Part shown: in pieces, positions 4,404 through 29,993 of the stretch
Layout of the letters: every line of letters begins with the position of its first letter
Position numbering within the stretch: position 1 is the first letter of the stretch
Virus record (IMG/VR): IMGVR_UViG_3300042691_036444
Coordinates: 1 to 29,993 of that record
Strand: one strand, 5' to 3'
From: a virus
DNA: 29,993 nucleotides
Position numbers and translations under genes: made by a program
The notes under the pieces: model-generated
What the model saw: the letters and a program-made list of their open reading frames with translations, nothing else
What the model was told of the DNA's origin: nothing
The model's database searches: none

Positions 4404-4414
4404 AAGGTTCCAAC

Positions 4415-6397: not shown

Positions 6398-6425
6398 GCG
6401 GTCCGCAATTCACCATCTGAAAGTC

Positions 6426-6450
6426 AGCGGCCTTGTGCCGCTATTTTTTT
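6426..6450 (+). terminator. Intrinsic terminator between capsid and cement genes
   Basis: A 6-base GC-rich hairpin (AGCGGC, loop CTTGT, GCCGCT) is followed by A and seven T. It sits 29 bases after the capsid stop codon and just before the AGGAG of the next gene, inside the late operon. It would lower transcription of downstream genes relative to capsid unless an antiterminator is present. Confidence 0.85.
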
Positions 6451-6468
6451 GAACAGGAGACCACTCCC

Positions 6469-6804: not shown

Positions 6805-6832
6805 AGGTTCTTTGTGACCAAGCGAGGCGACA

Positions 6833-7135
6833 ATGATGGATGAAGATATGCCCGGCGATGGTCCGGTAACACACTGGAGCATCGACCGGCGTATCCCATT
6901 GGCGCTGATCGTCACTTTGCTCGTTCAATTCAGCGGCTTTATCTGGTGGTTCTCTTCTGTTGAGTCACGCTTGACGATGAAAGAGCAGCGCCTTGCCCGC
7001 GTCGAGCAGCGCCTTGATGATGATCAGCGGGCCATTGCAACGATCGGAGAGCGCCTCGCTCGAATTGAAGAACGTTCCAATGCGCAGATTGATTTACTCA
7101 AGCGGATAGAGCAACGCCTTGGGGATCGTCATTAG
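6833..7135 (+). CDS. Small membrane protein with coiled coil, in head gene cluster
   Basis: A 100-residue protein with a cytoplasm-type N-terminus (about 1-20), one clear transmembrane segment (PLALIVTLLVQFSGFIWWF, about 22-40) and a C-terminal coiled coil with heptad-like RLARVEQRLDDDQ, ERLARIEERS and LLKRIEQRLG. GAGG (6824-6827) supports the ATG. It resembles the i-spanin or holin-accessory architecture, yet it lies between the cement and head-tail joining genes, far from the lysis cassette. It could act at the membrane (exclusion, accessory lysis) or as a minor virion component. No family assigned. Confidence 0.75.
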   Translation: MMDEDMPGDGPVTHWSIDRRIPLALIVTLLVQFSGFIWWFSSVESRLTMKEQRLARVEQRLDDDQRAIATIGERLARIEERSNAQIDLLKRIEQRLGDRH

Positions 7136-7449
7136 TGAGCGTCTTCGATACGGCTGTTCAGGCGTTGTTTCGCGATCCCAACATCACCGAAGACGCTCTT
7201 TGGCGACCAAGCGGGGTTGGTGCTGGCATTGCCATTCGGATCATTCGCATTCGGCCACAAGCTGAGTTCGATATTGGCGGCGTGAAGCTTGTTCAGGACA
7301 ACGTTCTGTTTGATGTCCCTGCGGGAATGGCCCCAACCATTGATGAGAACGACACAATTGAGGCTGCCGGCGAAGTGTTCAAGATTCAGTCGCCGCCAGT
7401 GCGCTCCATGAGCGGCCGAATTTGGCGGGTCGATGTGAGGCATTTGTGA
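7135..7449 (+). CDS. Putative head-tail joining protein (gpFII-like)
   Basis: A 104-residue protein beginning with GTG that overlaps the preceding stop by one base (TAGTG), with GGGGA about 9 bases upstream. Its start (FDTAVQALFRDPNITEDALWRPSG) and beta-rich middle (IRIIRIRPQAEFDIGGV, VPAGMAPTIDENDTIEAAGEVFKI) recall lambda gpFII-type attachment proteins. These sit at the connector and mediate tail docking. Size and position agree. The sequence match is by pattern only. Confidence 0.7.
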   Translation: MSVFDTAVQALFRDPNITEDALWRPSGVGAGIAIRIIRIRPQAEFDIGGVKLVQDNVLFDVPAGMAPTIDENDTIEAAGEVFKIQSPPVRSMSGRIWRVDVRHL

Positions 7450-10230: not shown

Positions 10231-10262
10231 CGCAGGCAAGATGAGAATGAGGGAGGTTGCAC

Positions 10263-13200: not shown

Positions 13201-13436
13201 GGATGAAGCAGGCGCCATCGGCAGGCGGAAATTCTGACGTTCAGGTTCATGTCTATGACATGCGGATGGGCCGGGACCAGCCGCCTGCGCGCACCGAACA
13301 AAAACGTGGACCGGATGGACGCAAGGAGATCTCTGTCTTCATCGAGGAGAAAATTGAGGACGCTATTCGAAGCGGCAGGCTCGATCGCGCGCAAGCCGAA
13401 ACGTATGGCACGCGCCGCATGACAAAACGGGTCTGA
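10263..13436 (+). CDS. Tail tape measure protein
   Basis: A 1057-residue protein whose length would set tail length. The N-terminus (ASRNISVRLQVEGGAFRAEL) leads into long alanine-, glutamate- and glutamine-rich coiled coils. A hydrophobic segment lies near residues 180-210 (ALAAAAAIAAVGIPLGIIL). Long coiled-coil regions cover about 400-810. The C-terminal part has a glycine/alanine-rich hydrophobic stretch and the typical end YHTGGMLGLRPDEVP, then LRGEEVL. The best start is TTG 10263, with GGGAGG (10251-10256) 6 bases upstream. The TTG at 10257 directly abuts that site and cannot use it. By analogy with known tape measures it is exported into the cell envelope during DNA ejection. Confidence 0.93.
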   Translation: MASRNISVRLQVEGGAFRAELIEAGRTGQEALKQIEVGAREASAALEKTGASAQKADRDQQQLTRSAERLKRQYTEGYQAAKEQSRASELLGKGVLTQTEYASVLEGIGRKYVTANANARAFGQSVEQQGQKVRATASQMAQLQPQLNDIFTTLTTGMSPLTIALQQGPQITQIFGGIGGTFRAIPPVALAAAAAIAAVGIPLGIILSRALDLASQSRAFNVALASMGLQGQTTANQLGELVEKLRDVGVARDEARSTVTTLVRTPELSVAEIPRLAGMAPDLAAATGATTSQAARQLADVATGGYDAIIKLDRALSGFLNPSQRENIRLLSQQGESTAAYKIAIDALEERIKGLNDQALSPTQKSLNDIGRAWDRLVDNLAKGAVGRVTLSIVEGKISGAANLMAPSKPPLRDHIGDAEDALQRAIERLEKFNNETRRYRDPNAEVFIPGFSFGAPNAVRVQLQAEVEAARTEFERLNEASARAQEQGKQLAAQAENPSGGMGSLGDRTIREETARQIADLETRRRLDSLTPAARPQAEAEIQAELAARERNLNAIEAEALKRAMVGNVIADQKRQYADLTREMELQSKTALDVAAAYGQGLTAVMRAEAARTAELENLRSGIDATARAEEILKNKVAETAEAQARAALQAQEAADSARRIAGAEAGGAAAVARAQASERALSATREARAALGAATGNSEAALRKSIEDTTRAIEAQSSAERAGQVLREQRVATNDLVIANLEKEAAATNNATERRARELAVERERRLLAQKDKFGAIDPTLTATQDAAAALREQARYFNDIRDQAKTIASDISTFLVDGFVNAGKAGKSVFANLADGAVGLFKRMAAKIAATLIEQKFILPITTQIVGAFPGLFGVVAPQAAAGAASTAAGAAASSGGIFDGLGKWFSGLFGAGHDGGLVGLAPSHVRSVAYAAFQGAPQYHTGGMLGLRPDEVPFVGLRGEEVLTRSDPRHRWNADWMKQAPSAGGNSDVQVHVYDMRMGRDQPPARTEQKRGPDGRKEISVFIEEKIEDAIRSGRLDRAQAETYGTRRMTKRV

Positions 13437-14262: not shown

Positions 14263-14681
14263 TGTCAGCTTTGCCAGATTGGACGCATCATTACATCGGA
14301 CTTCCCTTTCGAGAAGGCGGGCGCGAGCGCACGGGTCTCGACTGCTACGGCTTACTGCGCCTTGTCATCAATGAACGCTTTGGCGGAAACATCCCTGAAT
14401 ATGAAGGCATCGCCTATCGAGGGGGCGATGATGCGGATTTTCTCGCTACGCTGATGGACGAGCGAATTCGCTTTTGGACGCCCGTTCGTATTGGGGACGA
14501 GCGCCCGGGAGACGGAATTCTGCTTCGCGTCATGGGCCGCCCGATCCATGTCGGCATCGTCATCGCTCCGGGCCTGATGCTCCACATCGAGAAGGACTGC
14601 GATAGCCTCATCGAGCGCTATTCAACCGGATCTCGCTGGGAGCGTCGCATTCTAGGGTTCTATCGTCATGCCTTTCGATAG
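14262..14681 (+). CDS. NlpC/P60-family tail peptidase (gpK-like)
   Basis: A 139-residue cysteine peptidase that probably cuts cell-wall peptide stems during entry as part of the tail tip. C28 in GLDCYGLLRL is the predicted nucleophile. The RPIHVGIVI stretch supplies the conserved His, and LMLHIEKD supplies a further polar residue or structural His. The length fits a minimal NlpC/P60 domain without the JAB domain found in lambda gpK. I take the ATG at 14262, which overlaps the DUF1833 stop (ATGA). An in-frame GTG at 14220 would lie inside the upstream gene and adds residues unlike the family. The 3' end overlaps the TipJ gene by 14 bases. Confidence 0.88.
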   Translation: MSALPDWTHHYIGLPFREGGRERTGLDCYGLLRLVINERFGGNIPEYEGIAYRGGDDADFLATLMDERIRFWTPVRIGDERPGDGILLRVMGRPIHVGIVIAPGLMLHIEKDCDSLIERYSTGSRWERRILGFYRHAFR

Positions 14682-17600
14682 CCTTGTCCCCCCGGATCCG
14701 GTGCGCTGGACACTGGTGGCGCGCCCCTTCTCGACTGACCGGCAAGAAATGCTCACGCCCTGCGGGCTGACCCTTGCCCAAATGCTTGAGCTATCCGACC
14801 TACCGCAGCGCTACTGGCCATATATTCAGGTCTTCGTTGATGATGAGGAGGTGCCGCGCCAATGGTGGCGACAGGTGCGTCCAAAGCCAAAAGCCCGCCT
14901 GTTTGTGCGGGTGAATGCCATGGGCGGCGGCGGTGGGGGCAAGAACCCTCTCGCCATCATCGCCTCCATCGCCGTCATTGCCTTTGCTGCCTGGGCGGCC
15001 CCCATGCTAACCGCAGCGATCTTTGGCGTCGAGGCGGCCGCCGTCAGCGCCGCCGGTGTCTTCACTGCCATGGGCCTGACCAAGCTCGTGATTGCAGGCG
15101 CGATCACCATGATCGGTTCGTTGCTAGTCAATGCGATTGCACCAACCCCCAAACCTGTTGCAGACGCAGGTCTCACCAACCCCGCGTTTTCGATCACCGG
15201 CACGTCTAACCGCCTCAATCCCTATGGCGCCATTCCGCGTGTGCTCGGCCGCAGGCGTCTCTTCCCCGTCCTTGCCGCAAAACCCTATACGGAGACCGTG
15301 GGCAACGAGCGCTACATGCGACTGCTTCTGCTGGTCGGCTATGGCCCCCTCGATATCGATGATCTCAGAATTGGAGCGACCCCTATCAGCGCATTCGACG
15401 GTGCCGAGGTCGAGATCCGCGAGGGTTGGGCCAATGATCCCGCCATCACGCTCTATACGCAGCGGATCGAAGAAGACCCCCTCTCAATCTCGCTCACCGT
15501 GGCTGGGGGCTGGCGGACCATCACCTCGCGTCAAGGCGCACGAGAAATCAGCCTCGATATCTCCTTTGATCGGGGGCTTGCTTATTACAATGACCAAGGT
15601 GGGCGCTCGAACGCGACCGTTGTTTTCGAGGCGCAATACCGCAAGCTCGGCGCTGCAAATTGGGAAGCGATACCCTGGAAACCCGATGGCGACGCGGGGT
15701 TCGAGACGGCGGGCGTCATTACAATCACCGACCAATCCTCCTCGCCGGTACGACGGGGCGGTCGCTTCAGCACGCCAGAAGTCGGCCAATATGAAGTCAG
15801 GCTTCGTCGCACGTCTGCTGACGCCACAAGCCAGAGGCTGATCGACACCGCCACAGCCTCGGTGCTGCGCACCATCACCGATAATGCCCCTGTCACCATG
15901 CAGGGACTGTCGATGATCGCCCTGCGGCTCAAAGCCTACGAGCAGATCAATAACCAGTTGCAGCAAATCAGCTGTGTGGCGACGTCCTATCTGCAGGTTT
16001 GGAATGGAGCGGACTGGTCGTGGGAACTGAGCCGGAATCCCGCTTGGGCGTATTGCGATATTCTGCGCCGTCGCGGCGGGGCTGAGCTTATCCCGGATGG
16101 GCGGATTGATCTCAGCGCCATCAAGGAATGGGCGCAGGCCTGCGATAGCTTGGCTACTGATGGCTCAGCGCGCTGGGTCTTTGACGGCGTGATCGAAGGG
16201 GGATCGGTTGTCGACGCCCTGCGGGATATCTCGTCCCATGCGCGGGCGCGTTACGGCCTGCGGGACGGCAAACACTCAATCGTCCGGGACATTCCCCAGA
16301 GCGTCCCGGTCCTGCACATCACGCCGCGCAATTCCTACGGCTATTCCGGACGCAAACAATTCATCGACATGCCCCACGCCCTCAAGGTCCGATTCATCAA
16401 CCCGGACAAGGAATGGCAGGAGGACGAGCGGATCGTCTATGCAGATGGATATGGCGCTGAGAACGCCGAGCGCTTTGAAACCGTCGACATGATGGGCTGC
16501 ACCAGCCCAGAACAAGCATGGCGTGAGGGTCGCTATCACCTTGCCGTCGGCAAGCTCCGCCCAGAAACCCATGAGGTCTTTCAGGACGTCGAGGCGCTGC
16601 GGGCGACCGATGGCGACCTCGTCATGTTCGCACATGACGTCATTCTCGTGGGACTCGGCTGGGGCCGCATCAAGGCGCTGATCCTTGATGAGGGGATGGT
16701 GAGCGCCCTGCAGCTTGATGAGCCAGCCAATATGGCAGCAGGCAAAAGCTATGCGCTACGCATTCGCCGGGCCGATGGGTCAAGTCAGGTTCTGCCGCTC
16801 GTAACTTTGCAAGGTAATAACCACGCCGTCACTCTGGCGACAGCGCTTCCCCAGAGTCTTGCGCCTGAACCCGGCAATCTCTTCCAGTTCGGGGAATCTG
16901 GACGCGAAGCTGCGCCCATGCTGGTGAAGGGGATCGAGCCAGGCCCCAATCTCAGCGCCAAATTGATCCTGATCCCTGCCGCGCCCGCCGTGCATGATGC
17001 CGATAGTGGCCTCATCCCGGATTTCGACAGCTACATTACCCGTCCCGCGAAGATCGAATTGGCGCGGCCTCCTGCCCCGCATATCTGGTCGGTGGTGTCG
17101 GACGAGAGCGTTCTGGTGCGCGGCCCTGATGGTCGTTCAAGCCCGCGTATCCTTGTGCGCCTCTATCCCCCGGCATCAAGCGCCGTGAACCCGCCCGAGG
17201 GGATCGAAGTACGGCTTCGCCAAAGCGAAAGCGCTGGTCCCTGGTCAGCTATTCCCACACAGCCAGCTGATACTCTGATCGTCGGTGTGCAGCCCGTCGA
17301 GGACGGGGTCAGCTATGATTTGCGGCTGCGCTTTGTCAGCGCCTCCGGCATTGCCTCGGATTGGACCGAGGTGCTGGGCCACCGTGTAGTCGGGCGCACG
17401 ACCCCGCCCGGTGGCGTGACTGGCTTTGGCGCTGAACGCCGCGCTGATGGCGTGCAGCTGAACTGGGAGCCCGTCTCAGCCCTGGATCTCGTCGGCTACG
17501 AGATCCGCGAGGGTTCGGCTTGGGATGGCGGAAGCGTCGTTACGACCAGATACCGTGGCACCACACTCTTTGTGGCGCTCACCGACGCCAGCGAGCGCTT

Positions 17601-18777
17601 CTTCCATATCAAGGCGATCGATGAGGTCGGCCTCTTCAGTCAGAGCGCAGCTAGCGTATCAGCCGCCGTATCCGCGCCAACCGCCGTGACAGTCTTTGAC
17701 GTGATCCCGCAGGGCGATCATGTGCGGGCGTCATGGGAGCCGGTGGATGGAAGCGGCATTGAATATGAGCTTCGGGCAGGCCCGACGTGGGGCACGGGAC
17801 GGTTCGTTGGCCGCGCAGCTGGTAATAACCTTGTCGCGCTATGGCCCATTCGCGATGCCATCGACGAGACCTTCTGGATCAAATCGGTGTCATCAGCGGG
17901 CCTCTATAGCGACATGGCTGCGGTCTCAACCACCCGTCTTGCGCCCCTCACTGGCAGAAACGCTGTGCTTACAAGCGACCGGCAAGCCCTGAACTGGATG
18001 GGCGTCCAACAGGGAATGGAAGTCATTGGCGGTAATCTCCTCGCCTTGGCGCGCTCGAATGGCGCAAACCTGCCACGCGGGGAATATGTGTTCCCCGTTG
18101 ATCTCTCCCGCTCCTGGCGGGCGCGCAATTGGGTGGATGCGCGCATCGCAACGGCCCCTGCCAATGATCTGACCTGGGCTGACGCAACCTTCCGCTGGGA
18201 GGATAGCGAGGCTGCATCCGCCTGGTTGCCGCTGGGCGATGTTGATGGCGCGACACTGCGCAGCCAGATCTCGATTGAGGCTGCCATACCGAATGATCTC
18301 ATTGAGGGGTTCCGTCTGGCGGGCAATGTCACGGGCGTCAAAGGAATGGCGGCGAGCCAAGCACTCAACCTTGGCTATGCTCCCGCGCGCTTTGATCAAG
18401 GCGTACGTGTTGGCAACGGCACAAAGGCAAAGTGGCCGGTGAATATCCCATCGGAGTTCTCAAGCACTTTCGATGTTCGCCTTGATACTCTGCTCGACGA
18501 GCCCATCGTTTATCTGGCGCTGACTGGCGACAAGGGAGCCTTGCGTCTCATCTGGTCACCCGACATCGGCGCCTTTGCACTTGAAGACGATTACGGGCGG
18601 CGTGTGGTCACGCCTCTTGTCCGGCGCGCTGGTGACCTCATCACCTTTGGCATCTGCCAGACGCCAACCATGCGTCGTCTCTTCGCTGCATCAATCCAAA
18701 CCGGTGTTATCGCCTCGGGATCCGAGCCCTTCACACCGCTAGGCGCTTTTACCAGCGCACAGCTTCACCCCGCATAG
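14668..18777 (+). CDS. Tail tip attachment/host specificity protein, TipJ (gpJ-like)
   Basis: A 1369-residue central tail tip protein. Residues 1-80 form an N-terminal domain. A GGGGGG stretch (86-91) is followed by a long hydrophobic region (about 95-165), as in TipJ proteins that fuse a gpI-like part. The next section (GAIPRVLGRRRLFPVLAAKP) begins the conserved gpJ core, which runs to about 800. Two fibronectin type III-like modules follow at about 911-1000 and 1000-1092. A C-terminal, probably receptor-facing region (1092-1369) contains a W-rich motif (1166-1186) also found at the start of the fibre protein at 19283. It would bind the host receptor and organise the fibres encoded next. Translationally coupled to the peptidase gene. 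Confidence 0.92.
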   Translation: MPFDSLVPPDPVRWTLVARPFSTDRQEMLTPCGLTLAQMLELSDLPQRYWPYIQVFVDDEEVPRQWWRQVRPKPKARLFVRVNAMGGGGGGKNPLAIIASIAVIAFAAWAAPMLTAAIFGVEAAAVSAAGVFTAMGLTKLVIAGAITMIGSLLVNAIAPTPKPVADAGLTNPAFSITGTSNRLNPYGAIPRVLGRRRLFPVLAAKPYTETVGNERYMRLLLLVGYGPLDIDDLRIGATPISAFDGAEVEIREGWANDPAITLYTQRIEEDPLSISLTVAGGWRTITSRQGAREISLDISFDRGLAYYNDQGGRSNATVVFEAQYRKLGAANWEAIPWKPDGDAGFETAGVITITDQSSSPVRRGGRFSTPEVGQYEVRLRRTSADATSQRLIDTATASVLRTITDNAPVTMQGLSMIALRLKAYEQINNQLQQISCVATSYLQVWNGADWSWELSRNPAWAYCDILRRRGGAELIPDGRIDLSAIKEWAQACDSLATDGSARWVFDGVIEGGSVVDALRDISSHARARYGLRDGKHSIVRDIPQSVPVLHITPRNSYGYSGRKQFIDMPHALKVRFINPDKEWQEDERIVYADGYGAENAERFETVDMMGCTSPEQAWREGRYHLAVGKLRPETHEVFQDVEALRATDGDLVMFAHDVILVGLGWGRIKALILDEGMVSALQLDEPANMAAGKSYALRIRRADGSSQVLPLVTLQGNNHAVTLATALPQSLAPEPGNLFQFGESGREAAPMLVKGIEPGPNLSAKLILIPAAPAVHDADSGLIPDFDSYITRPAKIELARPPAPHIWSVVSDESVLVRGPDGRSSPRILVRLYPPASSAVNPPEGIEVRLRQSESAGPWSAIPTQPADTLIVGVQPVEDGVSYDLRLRFVSASGIASDWTEVLGHRVVGRTTPPGGVTGFGAERRADGVQLNWEPVSALDLVGYEIREGSAWDGGSVVTTRYRGTTLFVALTDASERFFHIKAIDEVGLFSQSAASVSAAVSAPTAVTVFDVIPQGDHVRASWEPVDGSGIEYELRAGPTWGTGRFVGRAAGNNLVALWPIRDAIDETFWIKSVSSAGLYSDMAAVSTTRLAPLTGRNAVLTSDRQALNWMGVQQGMEVIGGNLLALARSNGANLPRGEYVFPVDLSRSWRARNWVDARIATAPANDLTWADATFRWEDSEAASAWLPLGDVDGATLRSQISIEAAIPNDLIEGFRLAGNVTGVKGMAASQALNLGYAPARFDQGVRVGNGTKAKWPVNIPSEFSSTFDVRLDTLLDEPIVYLALTGDKGALRLIWSPDIGAFALEDDYGRRVVTPLVRRAGDLITFGICQTPTMRRLFAASIQTGVIASGSEPFTPLGAFTSAQLHPA

Positions 18778-20478: not shown

Positions 20479-21504
20479 ATGGCCCAAACCTACCCCGACA
20501 TTCCCTCAACCAAAGCCGTCAGGGACAGTCGTCAGGACATTCTCGACCGCGATGAGGCTGTCCGGTCAGCCTTTTCGGGAACGACCTATCCGAGCACAAA
20601 TCTCGTCATCGGCATGTTCTGCTTCCGCACTGACCTGGGGCAGCTTTTCGAATTGACCGCTACCTCCCCGGTGACGTGGACACGCCTTCCGTTGGGTGTT
20701 CCGGTGCCTCTCAATCAAGGCGGTACCAGCGCGACTGACGCAGCAACCGCACGCACCAATCTTGGCCTTGGCGCCCTAGCAGTCAAAAGCACCGTGGCGG
20801 CGGCGGATATTGATAACGCCGCGATCCAGACGGCAAAGCTACAGGACGCCTCTGTCACCACAGCCAAAGTCGTCGATGCCAATATTACAACGGCGAAGAT
20901 CGCTGATAGCGCCATTACAAGCGCCAAGATCGCCGACGGCACGATCACTACCGCTGATTTAGCGGCCCAGACCATCACAGACATTCGCGCAGGCGTTGAC
21001 GTCTCAAGCCGTGTTGCAAAGTCTGGAGATACGATGACCGGCACGCTGAGCGCGCCAAACCTCATTTCAACAGGAACGGTGCGATCTGGCGCAACCGGCG
21101 ATAACGCGAGATCAACGGGTTTCAAAATCGCTGATGGGTCAGATATCGGCGAACTCAACAGATCCAACCAGTATTACGACGACCGCATCAATAACTGCAC
21201 GGGATACCTTCCCAACGGCAATTGCCTAGCCAATGCGCAGTGGACGCCACCGAATGGCAACTGGTGGACCTGGGGTCTGGGCCTTGGCCCCGCCAATCCC
21301 AGTGGCTTCGATTTCGCCGGTGGCTCCAGTGTCGCTTATCAAGCTGTAACAGTTGGCCTCGTCTATACCGCCTATGCTTTGACTGCCGATGAAATCGGCG
21401 GTGGCGAATATCATCGCACCTTCAACAACTGCAATTGCGGCGGACTGAATTGCTACACCAATTGCAACTGCAATTGCGACTGTAATTGTAACTGCAATTG
21501 CTGA
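20479..21504 (+). CDS. Tail fibre protein with C-terminal Asn-Cys repeat tail
   Basis: A 341-residue fibre protein with GGGAGA before the ATG. Order of parts: an N-terminal attachment region (1-75); LNQGGTSATDAATARTNLGL (78-97), a motif common in phage tail fibres; five to six 10-residue repeats (111-170); SRVAKSGDTMTGTL (177-190), another classic fibre motif; a W-rich C-terminal domain with C240 and C249; and a final tail from residue 316 made almost only of Asn and Cys. The tail has ten cysteines at 318, 320, 325, 329, 331, 333, 335, 337, 339 and 341. Nothing in the standard fibre families I know explains this tail. The genes that follow encode two modifying enzymes, so I propose that the tail is their substrate. 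Fibre identity is well supported; modification is inference. Confidence 0.88.
   Translation: MAQTYPDIPSTKAVRDSRQDILDRDEAVRSAFSGTTYPSTNLVIGMFCFRTDLGQLFELTATSPVTWTRLPLGVPVPLNQGGTSATDAATARTNLGLGALAVKSTVAAADIDNAAIQTAKLQDASVTTAKVVDANITTAKIADSAITSAKIADGTITTADLAAQTITDIRAGVDVSSRVAKSGDTMTGTLSAPNLISTGTVRSGATGDNARSTGFKIADGSDIGELNRSNQYYDDRINNCTGYLPNGNCLANAQWTPPNGNWWTWGLGLGPANPSGFDFAGGSSVAYQAVTVGLVYTAYALTADEIGGGEYHRTFNNCNCGGLNCYTNCNCNCDCNCNCNC
20809..20988 (+). repeat. Ten-residue repeats in fibre shaft
   Basis: Residues 111-170 read as six consecutive decapeptides, of which five match well: IDNAAIQTAK, LQDASVTTAK, VVDANITTAK, IADSAITSAK and IADGTITTAD. The consensus is hydrophobic-x-D-x-x-[IV]-T-T-A-K. 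Such regular repeats suggest a trimeric beta-type shaft. Confidence 0.85.
21424..21501 (+). repeat. Asn-Cys codon repeat at the fibre C-terminus
   Basis: The last 26 codons consist of AAC/AAT and TGC/TGT alternation broken by GGCGGACTG, TACACC and one GAC. Both synonymous codons of Asn and of Cys are used, so the repeat is held at the protein level and is not just a recent DNA slippage product. The stop codon follows the last Cys directly. Confidence 0.9.
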
Positions 21505-21516
21505 TTGGAGCCGACA

Positions 21517-22329
21517 ATGCAAATCTATCAGATCAACCGAAAAATCATGCCGTTCAGTTCGGCCATACAAATTGAAAAGGATATCTTGAAGATCTCTGCG
21601 AGATGGAAGTCGCAAGATAAAAAGCCTATCTCTCAGTCATATAATCTAGCCGAAATAATCGGTCGATATTCTGAGGATCACGGCTGCATCGCGCTTTGCT
21701 ATACACCCAGATTCAAAGACGAGCTCGTGTGGCACGAAACAACACGGTTCACCTATGGTGAGCGGATTTCCTCCGATCGTTCTTATTCTTCGATGATGCA
21801 GGACGGCCTATCGATCAACGACACACCTCAAAAACGTGGCCGCCATAATGCCGCTTCGCCCGCAGCGATACTCAAACAACGATTGGATGCGACACCCGTC
21901 CTTTATCTTCTAACGCCTGCGCGAGGATGTTCCGTCAACAACTCAATCATCGTCTTTCACGGTGTGGATCCAGATCCAGGCATTCCGGAAGAATTCCGAA
22001 CAACTCACTCGTTGAGCGTGGATGGAAACATACAGGCTCCACCAATGATGCCCTCACTCAAGATGTTTCTGGAAAGCTGGCTTCCAATAGCCATTGGAGG
22101 ACCAGACTTAATTCCGGCCGATCAAACGGCGAAATACCTCCTCACCAATATGCAGGGTGGTGAAATATACCTTGAGGCCACTGGCGGGATCTTGAATCGG
22201 TCTCGCGCCAAAAACGGTCAACAAGTGCTCCTCGACACGCGTGGCTTGGAGACTGGCGAAGAGATCACGATCAAGGCCGGATACAAATTCTGGCCGGGGA
22301 TCTCTCAAAAAAAGATCGCAATCATATGA
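21517..22329 (+). CDS. Unknown protein in the fibre-modification cassette
   Basis: A 270-residue protein I do not recognise. GGAG (21507-21510) lies 6 bases before ATG 21517, so this start is preferred over a TTG at 21505 that abuts the fibre stop. The N-terminal part holds GCIALCYTPRFKDELVWHE; the middle has a low-complexity TPQKRGRHNAASP linker (about residues 100-112); the C-terminal third (YLLTNMQGGEIYLEATGG, then VLLDTRGLETGEEI) looks strand-rich. No signal peptide or membrane segment is seen. Base composition is visibly more AT-rich than in the neighbouring structural genes, which suggests separate acquisition. It is 12 bases from the fibre gene and overlaps the oxygenase gene (ATGA), so it is co-expressed with both. 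It could be a fibre chaperone, an accessory binding protein for the modifying enzymes, or another fibre part. Confidence 0.78.
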   Translation: MQIYQINRKIMPFSSAIQIEKDILKISARWKSQDKKPISQSYNLAEIIGRYSEDHGCIALCYTPRFKDELVWHETTRFTYGERISSDRSYSSMMQDGLSINDTPQKRGRHNAASPAAILKQRLDATPVLYLLTPARGCSVNNSIIVFHGVDPDPGIPEEFRTTHSLSVDGNIQAPPMMPSLKMFLESWLPIAIGGPDLIPADQTAKYLLTNMQGGEIYLEATGGILNRSRAKNGQQVLLDTRGLETGEEITIKAGYKFWPGISQKKIAII

Positions 22330-22958
22330 GCGTGATCAGTCTCTGGCCGACGAATATCTGGGCTGAAAATTTAACCGGCATATTGTCGTCGGAGGGATTT
22401 GCTAGGCTGATCGCAATCGGTGACGAATATGAGGCCGCACATCCTCGTGCCCATAAGCCAGCTGCAATGCGCGGGGGACCTGAGGTCAGCTATAATCTTT
22501 TGAAAGACAACCGACCCGAAGCCGTCACCTTCAAGGCGATACTCGCTGAGCGTATGCGGCGTCTTGCTAATGCTGAGGGTTTTGAGGCGGACACAGAATT
22601 TGAAGCGGTCTGCGCCCTTCGCCGCTTTGGGCCGGGAGAATATGCCAAGCCTCATAACCACAGAAGCGTGGATTACGTAGCCGTCCTTTGGCTGTGCCTG
22701 GAGCAAACTGACGATCGAGGCGACCGCCACCAACTGCCCGCCGGAAACCGCCTCCACTTGATTGATCCGATTGCAGCTCGCTCCCGCTTTCTCAATCACA
22801 CGATGCTGCATGCGATACGCCCCTTACCCGGGCTCCTCGTTATTCACCCGGCTCACATCTTCCATACCAGTGAAGTCAATTTGGGGCGTACGGACACTGT
22901 AGCTCTCGTGACCAACATTCGCGTCATCGATCCGGCGCGCCATTACATCCAACTCTAG
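22326..22958 (+). CDS. Predicted 2-oxoglutarate/Fe(II)-dependent oxygenase
   Basis: A 210-residue protein resembling the phage-associated 2OG-Fe(II) oxygenase family (TIGR02466-like). The N-terminal VISLWPTNIWAENL matches the family's start. H110 and H112 in KPHNHRSVDYVAVLWL, D147 in LIDP, and H177/H180 in HPAHIFHTSEV supply candidate iron ligands. R188 in LGRTDTVALVTNIRV fits the 2OG-binding position just before the last strand. Such enzymes typically hydroxylate amino acid side chains, including Asn and Asp, using O2. The start overlaps the previous stop (ATGA); the next gene begins 8 bases after the stop. Given its neighbours, I infer that it acts on the Asn-Cys tail of the fibre. The exact iron ligands are uncertain. 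Confidence 0.78.
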   Translation: MSVISLWPTNIWAENLTGILSSEGFARLIAIGDEYEAAHPRAHKPAAMRGGPEVSYNLLKDNRPEAVTFKAILAERMRRLANAEGFEADTEFEAVCALRRFGPGEYAKPHNHRSVDYVAVLWLCLEQTDDRGDRHQLPAGNRLHLIDPIAARSRFLNHTMLHAIRPLPGLLVIHPAHIFHTSEVNLGRTDTVALVTNIRVIDPARHYIQL

Positions 22959-22966
22959 AGAACCCA

Positions 22967-24340
22967 ATGACCGAAAATCTCGAATACCGGCTCGTGATGG
23001 CGGGCCGGAACGGCTATCTGCGCGAGCTTCTCTATCAGCCCCACGTATCATCGCTTATTTGGGCAGATACTGGTGAGCCCGTTGCCCTTTCGCCCGTCGG
23101 CACAAGCTACGATCATTCGGCACCTACTTGGACAACTGCCCACCCCGTCTCCCCCGACAATCCCGCAGTCAAGAGCCGGGATATCCGCACATTGAAGATC
23201 CAGATGGGGCTCAAGTGCAATTACGCCTGCTCCTACTGCAATCAGGCGTCCCAACCCCATGAAGTCCAGGGTGACATTGGCGATGTCCAAACCTTCCTGC
23301 GCAATCTCCCGCTGTGGTTCGATGGCGGAACTGATGGCGAAGGAAGCGGCGTTCGTATCGAATTTTGGGGCGGGGAACCCCTAGTCTACTGGAAAGTGTT
23401 TCGCGTGTTGGCAGGAGCCTTGCGCTCCGCTTATCCAAAAGCGCGCTTCAACATCATCACAAACGGTGCCTTGATCGACGACGACAAGATCGAGTTCCTA
23501 GACACTCTGGGCTTTAGCGTCGGCATCAGCCACGACGGCCCGGCCATGCGTTTCCGTGGTCCTGACCCCCTTGATGATCCGACCCAACGCTCCGCGATCC
23601 GCCGTCTTTACGATCGATTGCGCCCTTGGGGGCGAATTGGCTTCAATGCCGTGCTTCACAAGCACAACACCTCCCTTGCTCAGGTTCGAGCTCATATCGC
23701 CGAGCGTCTTGGTGTGCCCCAAGATGATCTCCAGCTTTCGACCGAAGAGATACTGCTGCCCTACGACGCAGGCGGTGTGGCGCTCTCCCCTACAACCGAT
23801 GACGAGCATCGCGACTATCGGGAGGCGATCTTCTGGGAACTGGTCAAGGGCCAAACGATGTCGGTCTCGACGATGCGCTCCAAGATCGACGAATTCTTCC
23901 GGTCGATTGCTCAACAGCGTCCCTCATCAACGCTCGGCCAAAAATGCGGCATGGATCGACCAAGCGATCTGGCCGTGGACCTCAAGGGCAATGTGCTGAC
24001 GTGCCAGAATACGAGCGCTTCCACCAAGCACCGGATTGGCGGCATTGAGGCCTTTGAAGACATCCGCCTGACTACAGCGCATCACTGGACCACACGGGCT
24101 GAGTGTTCGAAGTGTCCGGTCGTACAGCTGTGTCAGGGTGCCTGCATGTTCCTAGAGGACGATCTCTGGACCCAGGCTTGCGACAACAGCTTCACCCACA
24201 ACCTCGCGGTCATGGCGGCATCTCTCTACTGGCTGACACGCCTTGTACTCGTTGAGATCGAAGGCACCGTCATCCGACGAGATGGATTGCCAACACGGAT
24301 CCCGGTCATCAGGGCTCCAGCCGACACCGTCTCAGCCTAA
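22967..24340 (+). CDS. Radical SAM/SPASM protein, putative peptide maturase
   Basis: A 457-residue enzyme. The radical SAM motif CxxxCxxC is C84, C88 and C91 (GLKCNYACSYCNQ). The GGEP motif is at 135-138 (FWGGEP). The C-terminal SPASM motif is complete: C327, then G341 with C346 (GNVLTC), C380-x2-C383-x5-C389-x3-C393, and C405. This predicts one SAM-binding and two auxiliary iron-sulfur clusters. SPASM enzymes modify peptides and proteins: thioether crosslinks, other crosslinks, epimerisation, or formylglycine in anaerobic sulfatase maturases. The first 70 residues may recognise the substrate. It is the last gene before a strong terminator, so it belongs to the tail fibre unit. The likely substrate is the Cys-rich fibre tail (inference). 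Sulfatase maturation is unlikely because no sulfatase gene is nearby. Confidence 0.9.
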   Translation: MTENLEYRLVMAGRNGYLRELLYQPHVSSLIWADTGEPVALSPVGTSYDHSAPTWTTAHPVSPDNPAVKSRDIRTLKIQMGLKCNYACSYCNQASQPHEVQGDIGDVQTFLRNLPLWFDGGTDGEGSGVRIEFWGGEPLVYWKVFRVLAGALRSAYPKARFNIITNGALIDDDKIEFLDTLGFSVGISHDGPAMRFRGPDPLDDPTQRSAIRRLYDRLRPWGRIGFNAVLHKHNTSLAQVRAHIAERLGVPQDDLQLSTEEILLPYDAGGVALSPTTDDEHRDYREAIFWELVKGQTMSVSTMRSKIDEFFRSIAQQRPSSTLGQKCGMDRPSDLAVDLKGNVLTCQNTSASTKHRIGGIEAFEDIRLTTAHHWTTRAECSKCPVVQLCQGACMFLEDDLWTQACDNSFTHNLAVMAASLYWLTRLVLVEIEGTVIRRDGLPTRIPVIRAPADTVSA

Positions 24341-24344
24341 TCCG

Positions 24345-24368
24345 CCCGCCACCACGGCGGGTTTTTTT
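24345..24368 (+). terminator. Intrinsic terminator ending the tail/modification unit
   Basis: CCCGCC, loop ACCAC and GGCGGG form a perfect 6-base GC stem followed by seven T. It starts 4 bases after the radical SAM stop codon and separates the modification genes from the lysis cassette. Confidence 0.92.
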
Positions 24369-24387: not shown

Positions 24388-25053
24388 ATGACAGCAACAA
24401 ACAACCGGACCGGCACGCCCCCACGCGGAATTCGCAATCACAACCCCGGAAATCTCCGCCGTTCCTCCGATCCCTGGCAAGGTTTAGCGAAAGACCAGAC
24501 AGATCCCGAATTTTGTCAGTTTGCTGCGGCGAAGTGGGGGATCCGAGCTTTGGCGCGGACCCTCATTGCTTATCAGGACCGGTGGGGCCTCAAAAGCGTG
24601 AAGCGCATTATCTCCCGCTGGGCGCCGCCTAACGAGAATGACACGGGAGCCTACGTGAAAGCTGTGGCCGAAGCGGTTGGAGTCTCTCCTGACGAGCCCA
24701 TCGATACCCACGACTATAAAATATTGAAGCCACTTACGCTCGCAATTATCCGTCATGAGAATGGGCAGCAACCCTACACGGATAGCGAGCTTGATGCGGG
24801 ACTGGTCCTAGCAGGGGTCGAGCCGCCACAGAAGCCCCTTGCTCAAACCCGCACAGTGAAAGGTGGACAGGTTGCTGCCGGTGCAACGCTGCTCGGTCTT
24901 ACTGCGGAAGCAGTCAAAGACATTGAGCCCGCCGTTCCCCTGCTACAGACGGCTCTTCTGGCTGCACCATGGGTTGTTGGTATCACCGCGCTCCTTGGTA
25001 TCGGCTACATGATCTGGGCACGGATTGATGACCGTCGCCGGGGGCTGCGATGA
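24388..25053 (+). CDS. Lysozyme-like protein with C-terminal membrane segment (endolysin candidate)
   Basis: A 221-residue protein. The N-terminal RGIRNHNPGNLRRSSDPWQG (13-32), FAAAKWGIRALARTLIAYQD and a later YVKAVAEAVGV match the lysozyme-like virion/P5-type family that cleaves peptidoglycan. From about residue 155 a linker leads to hydrophobic stretches. The main one (187-211, TALLAAPWVVGITALLGIGYMIW) is a clear transmembrane segment followed by RIDDRRRGLR. There is no separate holin gene in the window, and the two spanin genes follow directly, so a lysis role is likely. The C-terminal segment could anchor the enzyme or help permeabilise the membrane. GGGAGAAAG precedes the ATG; the stop overlaps the next start (ATGA). 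Confidence 0.8.
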   Translation: MTATNNRTGTPPRGIRNHNPGNLRRSSDPWQGLAKDQTDPEFCQFAAAKWGIRALARTLIAYQDRWGLKSVKRIISRWAPPNENDTGAYVKAVAEAVGVSPDEPIDTHDYKILKPLTLAIIRHENGQQPYTDSELDAGLVLAGVEPPQKPLAQTRTVKGGQVAAGATLLGLTAEAVKDIEPAVPLLQTALLAAPWVVGITALLGIGYMIWARIDDRRRGLR

Positions 25054-25473: not shown

Positions 25474-26385
25474 TTAATTTAAGGGCCTCCGCTCGTCCTC
25501 AATCTCCGGATCAATAGTTTGGGCCGCCCTTAGTCGCCAGAATTCAGCTGCATCTAAATCTTGCGTTACCCCCTCGCCATGCTCATAAATGTGAGCAAGG
25601 CTTAACATGGAGTGCTTCAATCCGGCTTCAGCGCCTTTGTGAAACCAGTACGCCGCTTTTTCCAAATCGCGGTGTGTAGCATCGGGGTGAGCTAAACACG
25701 CACCAACGTTCTGCAATGCAGTTGGAATGCCACCATCCGCAGCAATCATATAAAATTCGATAGCCTTATCTATACTTTTCTCTACGCCTTTGCCGCGCTC
25801 GTACATTATGGCTAGGTTGTTAGCAGCGTACGCGTCGCCTTGCTCTGCTGAATCTTTGTAAAGATCGTGTGCCAAGTTGAGATCGCGTTCAACCTCAACT
25901 CCTTCCGAATAGTAGATTGCTAAACGACGTTGCGCGAGCGCTGAGCCGCCTTTTGCCGCTTGCCAATAAGCAGGGATCGCAAGATCGTGGCGACGTTCAC
26001 CAAGTGCGCCACCCGCAAACAGCTCTCCAAGCAGCGCAGAACACTGAACATCGCCAAGCTTGCTGCCTTCAAAAAAATATTCTGCTGCTTTTTGAGCCGA
26101 CTTCTCAACCCCCATACCATAGAGAAAAATCATACCCAATCCGTAGAAGGCGTCTGGAAATTCGCTTTCTGCAGCTTTCTCTAGCCAGAACTTAGACCGA
26201 CTAGGATCGGGTTCCGGGCAGAAGAGGAGCATATTGCCAAGCACCGATTGCACGAAGGAAATGCCTTCACCCGCAAGTTCTTCAAGTATCGCGAGAGCTT
26301 CATCGCGATGTCCAGCCTGGTACAGTTTCAGGGACTCTTGGTAGCGCGCTGCATTTCGTGAATCGATATCGTTGGACCCTGACAT
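25474..26385 (-). CDS. Sel1-repeat (TPR-like) protein
   Basis: A 303-residue protein built of Sel1-like repeats of about 36 residues: AFYGLGMIFLYGMGVEKSAQ, ALAQRRLAIYYSEGVEVERD, AYAANNLAIMYERGKGVEKS and SMLSLAHIYEHGEGVTQDLD are clear units. These alpha-helical solenoids bind proteins and often work as adaptors in signalling or with secreted proteases. No signal peptide is seen, so it is probably cytoplasmic. It lies 43 bases downstream of the HtrA-like protease gene on the same strand, so the two may form an operon. It runs convergently to the phage lysis genes and is more AT-rich by eye. Whether it belongs to the phage or the host chromosome is unclear. Confidence 0.9.
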   Translation of the reverse strand: MSGSNDIDSRNAARYQESLKLYQAGHRDEALAILEELAGEGISFVQSVLGNMLLFCPEPDPSRSKFWLEKAAESEFPDAFYGLGMIFLYGMGVEKSAQKAAEYFFEGSKLGDVQCSALLGELFAGGALGERRHDLAIPAYWQAAKGGSALAQRRLAIYYSEGVEVERDLNLAHDLYKDSAEQGDAYAANNLAIMYERGKGVEKSIDKAIEFYMIAADGGIPTALQNVGACLAHPDATHRDLEKAAYWFHKGAEAGLKHSMLSLAHIYEHGEGVTQDLDAAEFWRLRAAQTIDPEIEDERRPLN

Positions 26386-26428
26386 TTTTCGTCTCTCTGC
26401 CCGATGCCTGTACCCTCAATTTTCTGCC

Positions 26429-27706
26429 TTATCGTATCTTTCCATTCTCGTTAATGACAAAGACGTCACGCACTTCAAGTGTCCGAACGAAAAAATCATA
26501 GCGCCCACTGATCATTGTAAAACGCGGGTAGCGGACAATGACCTCGACATCACTCCCTTCGCGGTCTTTGAGCGCTGCAAGAATGTCTTCAGGGCTCTTC
26601 ACTGTAACGCCATCAATCGAGAGGACTTGATAGCCTTCACGAAACTGCGCCTGCTCTGCAACCGAGGCATCATCGAGAAACTGAATCCACATTACGGTAG
26701 GATCGTAGCCTGTGACCGTAGACCGGCCAATGACCATGCCCGACACATGAACACCCAACCGCTTCACCGGATCACGCCGCGTCAGCGCTGCGAGTTCTAC
26801 ACTTTTGGTTTCCTTGCCTCGACGGATCTGCACTTGAACGGGACCGCCGCCCCGGAAATAGCTAACGAAGCGAGTCGAGAAGCGTGCTGTTTCGTCACCA
26901 TTGACACCAAGGATGCGATCTCCCGGCTTCAGCATGTCGGCCCAATCGCCATCAGATTGCGCAACAACAAGTTCGCGTTCCTTCGAAGTCGTTGCGAACG
27001 TGACCGGAAGAACCGGCGGTGATGGATCTTTGCCTTGTTTGAGCAGGCTCAGGATGTTGCAGGCTTGCTTAGAGGGGACTGCGAAGTTCAAGCCCTCAGA
27101 CACAGATTTGCTAAATCCTGACGCGTTCACGCCAACGACGATCCCAGATTGCGCATCAATGAGAGCGCCACCTGAATTGCCTGGGTTAAGTGCAGCATCT
27201 GTCTGAAGGCTTTCTTCTCCCTCAAGAGACTTTGTGCCGCTGATAATCCCTCGGGTCGCTGTGTAGTCCAATCCCCAGGGGTGCCCAAAGGCGATGACTG
27301 GCAAGCCCGCTGCGGGCTCACCCACACACTTCATTTCGGCGACAAGCGCCTCAGCGGGGATGTTTGCGGGGTCTACTCGCAGAACAGCCAAATCCAGATG
27401 GTTGTCGACGTAGATTTTCTCTACCTTTGAATAGGGACGGTCCTTGAAGCTCACCCGGACAGTGGATGGTGACTTCCCGGCTACGTGTGCATTCGTGAGG
27501 ATCCAGCCACGCTCGCGGTCCACCAAAAAGCCGGAGCCCCGCCAAGTCCCCTTCTTTTCGTTACCAAATGAGTAATCTACCGCCGTGGTAATTTTGACGG
27601 TGTACCGACCAGCCGCCTCGATCACGTCGTTAGCCAGCGCGGGCTGAATTGCTTGTGTAGCAATAAGCGTTGCGAAAATTGAACCTATGCCAAAAGACCG
27701 AATCAT
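26429..27706 (-). CDS. Secreted HtrA/DegP-like serine protease with two PDZ-like domains
   Basis: A 425-residue protein with an N-terminal signal peptide (about 1-25, FATLIATQAIQPALA). The trypsin-like domain carries the triad H74 (LTNAHVAG), D105 (HLDLAVLRV) and S178 (NPGNSGGAL). Two PDZ-like modules follow (about 235-312 and 318-405: WADMLKPGDRILGVNGDE, EGYQVLSIDGVTVKSPEDIL). It would work in the periplasm on misfolded or specific proteins. The start is supported by a G-rich site (complement of 27714-27718) 7 bases upstream of the ATG. It is shorter than housekeeping DegP (about 470-500 residues) and may have a specialised role, perhaps with the Sel1 protein. No phage link is visible. Confidence 0.92.
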   Translation of the reverse strand: MIRSFGIGSIFATLIATQAIQPALANDVIEAAGRYTVKITTAVDYSFGNEKKGTWRGSGFLVDRERGWILTNAHVAGKSPSTVRVSFKDRPYSKVEKIYVDNHLDLAVLRVDPANIPAEALVAEMKCVGEPAAGLPVIAFGHPWGLDYTATRGIISGTKSLEGEESLQTDAALNPGNSGGALIDAQSGIVVGVNASGFSKSVSEGLNFAVPSKQACNILSLLKQGKDPSPPVLPVTFATTSKERELVVAQSDGDWADMLKPGDRILGVNGDETARFSTRFVSYFRGGGPVQVQIRRGKETKSVELAALTRRDPVKRLGVHVSGMVIGRSTVTGYDPTVMWIQFLDDASVAEQAQFREGYQVLSIDGVTVKSPEDILAALKDREGSDVEVIVRYPRFTMISGRYDFFVRTLEVRDVFVINENGKIR

Positions 27707-27929
27707 CTACATGCCCCCGTTTTCCAGATCATTGGGGGACGTAGACTTTGCCGCAAGACACCTGTGCCCATCACCCCGCTGTTAGCGATTCAATACCTTA
27801 CGGGGATGACAAATTTTGACACGCCTCCCGCTGAGAATATGGCCGAGCCATTACAATATAAGTTTCGTCTGCATGACATTTCAGACTGTAAGCGCGGTCG
27901 AGATTACGGGCGTCTGATTTATCCGTTGG
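27707..27929. other. Intergenic region upstream of the protease gene
   Basis: These 223 bases hold no credible gene. The - strand promoter for the protease should lie here. A weak candidate is TTGCGG, 17 bases, AATGAT, just upstream of the start. A short separated dyad (CCCCG/CGGGG around 27775-27815) is also visible. Nothing decisive. Confidence 0.3.
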
Positions 27930-28871
27930 TCAGCTTGCAGTTTGCTGAGGTCCCTCTTGCCCCGCCTCCCATTCCGCATAGGTGTTGCCATCCGGCAATT
28001 TCCATAAGGTGCGCCCATTCGCGCTCGCACCAATGACTGCTGCTGCGGCGGCCGAGGGTGAAGAAAAATTGTAGCTACTGGTGAATACCAGAAAATCAAT
28101 ATCGCGCCGGAGCACGCCCTTTTCGAGTAGTGTTTCCCGAATGGCTGCCGTCGCCTTTGGTACAGTTGGTGTTGCACGGGCCCGGGCCTTTGATCCCTCA
28201 GCCACGACGAACTCTCCGGACGAGCCAACCACCATTTTAGCAGCGTATCCTTCTCCTATGAAAGAGAATACCACTGAACCGCAACTGGCTGGTTGAGTGA
28301 CGTTGGGGCCAAGGTCAAACGAATCCTGTGCGCGTCCTTTCATCTCGCGGAACAGATCCCATCCGAGCGCTCCGACCAAAGTCTTTGTCTGATCGACGAA
28401 CTCGTCCATGTCGACGCGATCCTGAAGTGGCAGCTTACCTGCATCATTAGAGGGTCTTTTGCTATTTGGAATGGACCACCGAACACTGCTACCTATGTTG
28501 CGGATAAGCGACGACTCTACATATCGAGCATGACTTTTCGTAAGGTTCTCATCCTTGCTGATCAGTACAACCGTATCTGTCCAGAAGCCTTTGGCGTCTC
28601 GGCCAGACTCATTCGAATTATGGTAAGAGAGCCGTGCGCCAACGCCCTCCGACTCGCCAATATAAGCAAGTTGCCTGTCCTGATGATTTTCATCTGCCCC
28701 GATTAGAATATAGACACCAGGCCGCTCGATTTCTGGAAACGTCTCACGCACACGCCGCAACTGATTGCGACGAAAGGCAATAGCCTGGATCGTAGACATA
28801 GAAATCTGGGCAACACGTATCCCGCTTGGATCTCCATCGAGAAGGAAAATGTTGATCGAGCGGGGCTTCAT
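27930..28871 (-). CDS. GIY-YIG nuclease-like protein with C-terminal DUF4357
   Basis: A 313-residue protein. The N-terminal SINIFLLDGDPSGIRVAQI is typical of this family. The GIY-YIG domain follows: GVY at 52-54, YIG at 70-72 (AYIGESEGVGARL), R80 and the metal-binding E119 (YVESSL), all expected catalytic positions. The C-terminal SAAAAAVIGASANGRTLWKL (about 273-292) marks a DUF4357 domain. Proteins of this type often occur in restriction and defence loci. The start overlaps the stop of the type III restriction gene by 4 bases (ATGA), so they are co-transcribed, and it may be a nuclease partner of that system. Confidence 0.88.
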   Translation of the reverse strand: MKPRSINIFLLDGDPSGIRVAQISMSTIQAIAFRRNQLRRVRETFPEIERPGVYILIGADENHQDRQLAYIGESEGVGARLSYHNSNESGRDAKGFWTDTVVLISKDENLTKSHARYVESSLIRNIGSSVRWSIPNSKRPSNDAGKLPLQDRVDMDEFVDQTKTLVGALGWDLFREMKGRAQDSFDLGPNVTQPASCGSVVFSFIGEGYAAKMVVGSSGEFVVAEGSKARARATPTVPKATAAIRETLLEKGVLRRDIDFLVFTSSYNFSSPSAAAAAVIGASANGRTLWKLPDGNTYAEWEAGQEGPQQTAS

Positions 28872-29993
28872 TTTGCAGCACCAATAGACGAAGATCGGCT
28901 GAGGCCGACGACCGCCATGAGCTTCCCGTAATCCGTGACAACATCATACCGCACCGCGTCACCGGACACGCGCCGTCCTATTTCATCGAAAAACTTCCGT
29001 GCGCAGGCGATCTTGGTGGACTCAATCTCGCGTAGCTTGAGCGAGGACATTGTCCCCTTAGTCTCGGCAACGAAGTAGATGTGCTTGACAGTGCCGACCT
29101 TGAACGAGATTGCCCAGTCCGGGTTGTAATCGCCGACAGGTGTCGGAATCAGGAACCCGCGGGGGAGCTTCGCGTAGACGACGACCTCGTCGCTCGTATC
29201 AAGCTCCTCCACGAACCGCCGTTCGATGTCCGAGTCCGTGACAACGTAATCATAGACATGGTTTTTCAGTTTTGAGCCAACCTTGGAGAAGTCCTGACCT
29301 GACTGGCTGGCCGTGAATATGTCGACGTCGTATCGGTCCTCGACACCGTCATAGGCCAGGCACTCAACGACCATTGTCGCCTTCTGCTCGGAGATGATCC
29401 TGGACGTCTCGGCAATGAAGTGTTCGGGGTTCTGGCGGAACTGAGCAAAGATGCTTGGCGCCATCCCGGTGAGGATTTCCGCAACGGTCCGGCGGGTTAA
29501 ATGGGCGTTTTCGGCGATCTTGCCCAGCAGGTCATACTTCACCTGCGAATAGACGGACCCGCCGCTCTCGGTGGTTGTATTGGTCACCTTGAACCCGTCG
29601 CCTGCCTTGAGCTGATCGTCCGTTATGTCATCGCTCTGAATGCCTGTTTGGACCGTGTACTGCAGCGGCGTGACACGGAGCTGGCTATCGAGCGCGCCGA
29701 CGCACTTGCGAACGAGCTCGTCGGAATCAAACTCCACCCGATAGACGGCCTTGCGGTTGATCCGGCCCCAGAGCTCCTGAAATTCCTTCTTGTCAAAGTT
29801 AGCGTTCAGAGGATTGGTCTTCGGCTTCCGGCCGTCTTCAACCTTGGGCAATTGGGCGTCGCTGAAAACGCTGTCGATCAGCTGGAAGACCTGATCGGCA
29901 TAGGGCTTCAGATCTTCCGGAAGCGCCGCCAGCGTGCCTGCGGTTTTGGCCTCGTGGTAGCCGGCCGCAATCTGGTCAGTGTCATCGGTGTAG
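28868..29993 (-). CDS. Type III restriction enzyme Res subunit, C-terminal part (runs off the window)
   Basis: An open frame of 375 codons ends at 28868 and continues beyond the right edge. An internal TTG at 29851 is not the real start, because the frame stays open upstream to the edge. The C-terminal domain has a PD-(D/E)xK nuclease signature: YNPDWAISF, then FVAETKG about 16 residues later, as in type III Res endonuclease domains. The preceding region (NFDKKEFQELWGRINRKAVY) also matches Res proteins. Res cuts DNA after ATP-dependent motion, with a Mod methyltransferase usually encoded upstream; neither the helicase part nor Mod is visible here. It overlaps the GIY-YIG gene, forming a defence operon. 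Confidence 0.88.
   Translation of the reverse strand, partial: YTDDTDQIAAGYHEAKTAGTLAALPEDLKPYADQVFQLIDSVFSDAQLPKVEDGRKPKTNPLNANFDKKEFQELWGRINRKAVYRVEFDSDELVRKCVGALDSQLRVTPLQYTVQTGIQSDDITDDQLKAGDGFKVTNTTTESGGSVYSQVKYDLLGKIAENAHLTRRTVAEILTGMAPSIFAQFRQNPEHFIAETSRIISEQKATMVVECLAYDGVEDRYDVDIFTASQSGQDFSKVGSKLKNHVYDYVVTDSDIERRFVEELDTSDEVVVYAKLPRGFLIPTPVGDYNPDWAISFKVGTVKHIYFVAETKGTMSSLKLREIESTKIACARKFFDEIGRRVSGDAVRYDVVTDYGKLMAVVGLSRSSSIGAAK

Follow-up and report, generated by a model that had tools for sequence, protein, structure and literature searches.

A cysteine-ladder tail fibre and a linked radical SAM/SPASM enzyme as a candidate virion-protein maturation cassette of phages

QhpD, a radical S-adenosylmethionine (SAM) enzyme of the SPASM kind, cross-links cysteines inside a protein subunit (the gamma subunit of quinohemoprotein amine dehydrogenase) and not in a free peptide. 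We know of no example in which radical SAM chemistry builds part of a virus particle. The maturase PapB forms thioethers between Cys and Asp or Glu at spacings of 0-6 residues (PMC9413430), and genome mining has returned a 'Cluster 59', in which peptides with repeated Asp-Cys lie beside a radical SAM enzyme and a recombinase, with the product unknown (PMC9062424); the latter is the nearest conceptual precedent for the locus described here. On the virus side, two studies left radical SAM genes unexplained: pelagimyophages carry cassettes of them in their host-recognition cluster (PMC7029224), and a T4-like virus has 12 (PMC5332604). We analysed a 29,993-base IMG/VR virus record (IMGVR_UViG_3300042691_036444, hereafter the window), in which the gene for a tail fibre that ends in a ladder of Asn-Cys pairs shares one unit with the gene for a radical SAM/SPASM enzyme. 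With a probability of roughly 0.75, we propose that the two belong to a virion-protein maturation cassette, in which the enzyme modifies the Cys ladder of the fibre.

The presumed substrate is a tail fibre protein of 341 aa (20479-21504; plus strand, as are all features of the unit). It is followed by the gene for a 270-aa protein with an ATG start, here called X (21517-22329), by that for an accessory Fe(II)/2-oxoglutarate (2OG) oxygenase of 210 aa (22326-22958), and by that for the presumed maturase of 457 aa (22967-24340). The three gaps measure 12, -4 and 8 bases and an intrinsic terminator with a T-run (24344-24362) closes the unit, all of which the initial annotation had read correctly. 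The fibre repeat region (residues 102-194) matches PHROG tail fibre families (3e-14), and these repeats, together with a place in the tail module between a gpJ-like protein and the endolysin, mark the protein as a phage tail fibre. Its final 26 residues, NNCNCGGLNCYTNCNCNCDCNCNCNC (21424-21501, the presumed modified segment), hold 10 Cys, nine of them after Asn and one after Asp, in agreement with the ten mostly Asn-paired cysteines reported earlier. At the Cys frequency of the window's other phage coding sequences (0.6%), the chance of such a ladder is ~2e-16.

The closest relative among the compared loci (numbered with the prefix L) is L256, a prophage-like stretch in a Beijerinckiaceae metagenome-assembled genome with a 91% identical enzyme. 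Between the window and L256, four of 20 compared tail codons differ, all of them synonymously and none non-synonymously; the L004 tail shows seven synonymous and two non-synonymous codon changes, and all loci together use 46 of the 64 codon combinations possible for NCNCNC. Because the codon changes are mostly synonymous and the encodings of NCNCNC diverse, the ladder is maintained as protein and not as a DNA repeat. An artefact of DNA-level repeats or slippage is thus ruled out by the codon diversity and by the excess of synonymous over non-synonymous change relative to L256. Hundreds of viral loci carry the CxC tail as a conserved module, with ladders of 3 to 11 Cys; across 892 pairs, Cys follows Asn 599 times, Ala 148 times and Asp 84 times (93% together). 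The tail module persists on fibre bodies that span about 60 to 726 aa and that fall, by blastp single linkage, into one large and five small groups, the large one being held together partly by common fibre repeats. A tblastn search of named phages with the tail alone gave no match, where low-complexity filtering may mask the tail.

The co-occurrence of fibre tail and radical SAM enzyme, a check that the initial annotation had asked for, was followed from both sides. From the enzyme, 442 relatives were confirmed among viral contigs and the best 80 of the 442 were kept; nearly all of these viral loci with enough upstream sequence had a same-strand open reading frame (ORF) that ends, or almost ends, in a CxC ladder. 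With viral and bacterial-genome loci pooled, provided they had at least 4 kb of upstream sequence, a CxC tail was found upstream in 102/110 loci, prophages of cultured bacteria included. From the tail, viral contigs were searched with DNA patterns of the tail alone, independently of the enzyme, for a four-pair or NC-x-T-NCNCNC motif that was in frame, no more than 30 residues from the ORF end and followed by at least 3 kb of sequence. A same-strand enzyme lay within 6 kb in 90/90 such loci; the tail-seeded loci comprised 44 non-redundant enzymes at 90% identity. A looser scan for three stop-anchored pairs (NCNCNC-stop) gave the enzyme in 28 of 35 loci directly and in L452 via a family-profile search of the record, i.e., in 29/35. 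In the out-of-frame control (the same DNA with no ladder frame) the enzyme was present in 0/96 loci, made up of 0/16 in a first set and 0/80 in a second. L103, the seventeenth locus of the first set, does encode the enzyme; the pattern there sits at the edge of the contig, which fits a true tail that was truncated.

Enzymes without Cys tails and tails without the enzyme, which had been named at the outset as evidence to the contrary, were looked for and proved rare, amounting to eight of the 110 enzyme loci and six NCNCNC tails. Among the eight, the enzyme ORFs of L319-L321 are truncated (L320 retains a degenerate tail, NCNCDRNCGC), L312 has transposase genes nearby, L293 and L304 seem to have been rearranged, and the context of L310 differs. 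The eighth, L268, is a chromosomal enzyme relative in Sulfuritalea (1584-7344), directly after a C39-peptidase ATP-binding cassette exporter and HlyD. Judged by these neighbours, this is an export context for bacteriocins or ribosomally synthesized and post-translationally modified peptides (RiPPs), and the L268 enzyme is possibly a true RiPP cousin; a precursor was not found at the locus. Downstream of the enzyme, no further CxC ORF was found (0/219). As a separate observation, a small ORF downstream of the enzyme in L049 (6145-6312) and L058 (5777-5944) ends SLLDSCKCKPKCKCKECKCK, with Cys at every second residue and Lys in place of Asn.

The pair occurs in phage contigs of siphovirus-like and of large marine type as well as in alpha- and betaproteobacterial prophages; some of the contigs are binned to other phyla. 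Large marine-type contigs (e.g. L081, 171 kb) encode small ladder proteins together with the enzyme. The radical SAM enzymes of Thermus phage Cumys and Campylobacter phage CPt10 showed no NC tail next to them, which ruled these out as members of the system.

In the window enzyme, PF04055 and the SPASM domain TIGR04085 both score above their cut-offs. The protein carries the motif used to define radical SAM enzymes with SPASM (CX3CX2C plus CX9-15GX4C...CX2CX5CX3C...C), its SPASM cysteines being arranged as C327-X13-G-X4-C346 / C380-X2-C383-X5-C389-X3-C393 / C405. These seven, counted rightly in the initial annotation, and the three radical SAM cysteines make 10, none of which varies among 110 non-redundant relatives with identities as low as 24%. 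The enzyme matches phrog_1802, a family of phage radical SAM proteins (E 7.8e-55, residues 58-432). Its closest NCBIfam models are all peptide or protein maturases (nif11-peptide rSAM, PapB and QhpD type), and all lie far below cut-off. The QhpD-type model TIGR03906 matches at 1.4e-18, the PapB ranthipeptide maturase NF047865 reaches 67.8 bits against a curated cut-off of 340, the SCIFF/CteB maturase TIGR03974 45.6 bits against 425, and the anaerobic sulfatase-maturating enzyme (anSME) TIGR03942 48.1 bits against 349. We therefore regard the window enzyme as belonging to a family of its own. Its AlphaFold model (predicted local distance difference test, pLDDT, 94.9; predicted TM-score 0.92) found CteB first in a Foldseek search of the PDB (5why, 1e-13), followed by anSMEcpe, ChlB, TigE and SuiB, with EpeE also among the fold relatives. 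At auxiliary cluster I (AuxI) the phage family has three invariant Cys, an arrangement that would leave a ligand site open and would be compatible with binding of a substrate thiolate. CteB reportedly has an open AuxI site as well, and substrate thiolate binding has been proposed there.

The genes between fibre and enzyme were clustered over 156 distinct loci. X is present in 86 of them and has no Pfam, NCBIfam or PHROG match; its AlphaFold model (pLDDT 84.7) has an immunoglobulin (Ig)/PKD-like C-terminal domain, an N-terminal fold without assignment, and fold-search matches only to this C-terminal domain and to uncharacterised phage proteins. X is probably a frequent accessory or tail protein. 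The window oxygenase, of the PF13759/phrog_81 kind, scores 18.5 bits against PF13759 (cut-off 27) and matches phrog_81 at 4e-9; a homologue in the same cluster passes PF13759 with 30.1 bits, and two His are invariant in the cluster. This PF13759-type cluster is found in 56/156 loci and any 2OG family in 69/156. PF13640-type oxygenases occur in nine loci, another family, oxygenase-like by motif only (HxD, H and R are invariant, and Pfam gives no match), in 17, and an extra radical SAM gene in 14. The oxygenase had been annotated as an equal partner of the radical SAM enzyme, which did not hold up: gene clustering ruled out a core role, 2OG genes being present in under half of the loci and elsewhere replaced by unrelated oxygenase families or by nothing. 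Since in some loci fibre and enzyme are adjacent, 10-19 bp apart with no gene between them, we conclude that the minimal unit is tail plus radical SAM enzyme, with oxygenases as recurring accessories. Non-homologous oxygenases recur in the slot between fibre and enzyme, which suggests a benefit of hydroxylation but does not by itself identify its target. The presence of 2OG genes was not significantly related to the Asn content of the tails (p 0.10); tail Asp was somewhat lower with 2OG (p 0.0015, relatedness not corrected for), from which we draw no claim. A further kind of oxygenase was observed in the same slot in L066, L189 and L213, where tandem genes of the PF00487 fatty-acid-desaturase type lie between ladder protein and enzyme, and in L092 and L142 three to four radical SAM genes stand beside a small ladder protein.

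In a minority of loci, including Achromobacter phage JWF, the ladder is directly followed by Cys and a Hint domain (PF05203); such loci are L082 (6727-8178), L140, L150, L158, L177, L204, L223, L235, L271-L273 and L275. The self-cleavage chemistry of Hint/intein domains is established, and on that ground cleavage right after the ladder, leaving the ladder as the C-terminus, is predicted. In L097, L220 and L249 the ladder is instead followed by a C-terminal domain that starts (I/V)ICT(K/E)L..., and the L220 and L249 proteins have no Pfam match.

Our proposal builds on what is directly established, i.e., the genes, their conservation, the linkage in both directions, the enzyme fold (from a model) and the cluster ligands. 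According to it, the phage would make a fibre, or elsewhere another small tail protein, that ends in a 10-30-residue ladder of Cys pairs (Asn as the partner in most pairs, Ala or Asp in others). Before the host is lysed, the radical SAM enzyme, whose gene lies 0-3 kb downstream, would modify this ladder in the cytoplasm. We consider it very probable that the tail is acted on by the enzyme. A Cys thiolate would be bound at AuxI, hydrogen would be abstracted by radical chemistry from the residue next to Cys, and capture by the thiolate would yield small thioether rings; for thioether as the product we see about an even chance. A series of thioethers could stiffen the tip and prevent oxidative scrambling of thiols. 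Where 2OG oxygenases are present, they might add hydroxyls to the tail or the fibre, and hydroxylation of the tail itself is a tentative suggestion. In the subset with a C-terminal Hint domain, self-removal of this domain would expose the ladder as the new C-terminus. It is somewhat probable that the fibre tip contacts the host. The gain might be a rigid, oxidation-proof tip in place of ~30 free thiols per fibre trimer (if the fibre is trimeric) meeting oxygen after lysis. Taken together, these steps would define a widespread class of virion maturation, in which phages cross-link an exposed C-terminal fibre ladder into poly-thioether tips by a dedicated radical SAM enzyme, with tailoring by hydroxylases and, in some, finishing by Hint domains; we consider this full picture as likely to be right as wrong.

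Other readings of the same genes have to be weighed against radical SAM maturation of the ladder. The tail could be a metal- or Fe-S-binding, metallothionein-like ladder, with the radical SAM enzyme doing something else or inserting or repairing the metal site. CxC spacing is typical of metal-thiolate sites and some phage spikes have metal at their tips; yet the pairing is near-obligatory, although a metal site can do without a radical SAM enzyme, and metal binding does not require the Asn, Ala or Asp that so regularly precede Cys, and we hold this reading to be improbable. Conversion of the tail cysteines to formylglycine, with aldehydes that bind host amines covalently, would fit anSMEcpe as the second-best fold family and the homologue in Achromobacter phage JWF, which is annotated as an anaerobic sulfatase-maturating enzyme. 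In the profile alignment, however, anSMEcpe Asp277 (next to Cys276), which we take to be the catalytic residue, is replaced by Q347, a Gln in 92% of the family, and Cys261, the extra AuxI ligand of anSMEcpe, has no counterpart in the phage family. Formylglycine formation is therefore disfavoured; moreover, the ladder cysteines lack a CxPxR-type motif around them, and the reading is highly improbable.

It is also conceivable, if rather unlikely, that the enzyme installs a tail modification other than thioethers, such as epimerisation, cyclopropane or C-C bonds, or thiolation. EpeE and TigE, with other products, are fold relatives too, and TvgB, whose substrate is a tandem repeat, has a 2OG oxidase as its partner (PMC9062424). 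Against this, it is Cys that stays constant in the repeat, the best-matching fold is that of the thioether-forming CteB, and the AuxI site with only three invariant Cys is compatible with holding a substrate thiolate. We give least credence to linkage without an enzyme-substrate relation, in which a shared fibre cassette would be all that joins tail and enzyme: phages swap tail cassettes as whole blocks and related loci inflate the counts, but tail and enzyme persist while the intervening genes differ or are absent, the pair is kept with different fibre bodies, and the out-of-frame control gave no enzyme at all.

Several observations weigh against ladder modification by the enzyme. Six NCNCNC tails have no enzyme in the available sequence (virus records may be fragments): one very short ORF (L340), L413, L416, and three members of one 202-aa family (L420, L435 and L453), which is the main group of exceptions. 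The loci are related to each other, so the counts are not independent. Ala precedes Cys in 17% of pairs, and a strict thioether at an Asn/Asp beta-carbon cannot easily serve these, although C-alpha could; the tolerance of Ala speaks either for sactionine-like chemistry at C-alpha or for units that are skipped. Finally, the enzyme model shows, in its N-terminal 70 residues, no helices resembling a RiPP recognition element (RRE) through which the tail might be recognised. As for the view of the fibre as a RiPP-like precursor, it is consistent with the linkage, which in both directions places a gene-encoded substrate beside a maturase, and with fold kinship to thioether-forming SPASM enzymes. Leader removal and a released product were not found: the tail stays part of the fibre, and only some tails have a Hint domain that could cut. 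The initial annotation was partly supported: its core, radical SAM maturation of the fibre tail, is probably right, and the part of the oxygenase was overstated.

The surroundings of the unit are those of a tail module oriented left to right. A tape-measure-sized protein of 1059 aa, assigned by size and place only (10257-13436), is followed by small tail proteins, by the gpJ-like host-specificity protein (14668-18777; PF24801, PF13550) and by two more tail genes before the four-gene unit; the endolysin (24388-25053; phrog_873) comes after the terminator. To the right of the lysis genes, minus-strand genes (25474-29851) encode a Sel1-repeat protein, a trypsin/PDZ (DegP-like) protease, a GIY-YIG plus DUF4357 protein and an RE_endonuc restriction-type protein, which could be the host flank of a prophage or accessory or defence genes.

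The open-access literature, with subscription journals and preprints outside the scope, contained no description of (NC)n phage tails or of radical SAM fibre maturases, and maturation of fibre tips by a radical SAM enzyme is apparently an undescribed way of building virions. If our proposal is true, radical SAM chemistry builds part of a virus particle and the radical SAM cassettes in host-recognition regions of marine T4-like phages are explained; a ladder protein with its enzyme may account for the radical SAM genes of the pelagimyophages and the T4-like virus mentioned above. Peptide-stapling chemistry could also draw on these tails and enzymes as a natural library.

Compared with described systems, 'Cluster 59' shares the tandem pairs ending in Cys and an adjoining radical SAM enzyme, a likeness in the described gene content, whereas its peptide comes with a recombinase and no tail fibre or phage is mentioned. 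TvgB likewise acts on a tandem repeat (TVGG) and has an Fe/2-oxoglutarate oxidase in its cluster (PMC9062424), but it makes cyclopropylglycine on Val in a cellular RiPP with transporter and peptidase. The substrate of QhpD is a subunit of a redox enzyme and not a virion protein, with Asp or Glu as the acceptor. Anaerobic sulfatase-maturating enzymes have the radical SAM/SPASM fold and act on Cys or Ser of a large protein; the phage enzyme differs in having Gln for the catalytic Asp and one AuxI Cys fewer. The thioether-forming ranthipeptide maturases CteB (the SCIFF maturase) and PapB likewise combine radical SAM with a seven-Cys SPASM domain and a repeated Cys-containing substrate, CteB being the best fold match. 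PapB is described as needing a carboxylate, whereas the phage ladder offers Asn, Ala or Asp, and in contrast to both, the phage enzyme has no visible RRE and presumably acts on the C-terminal end of a virion fibre rather than on a short leader-core peptide.

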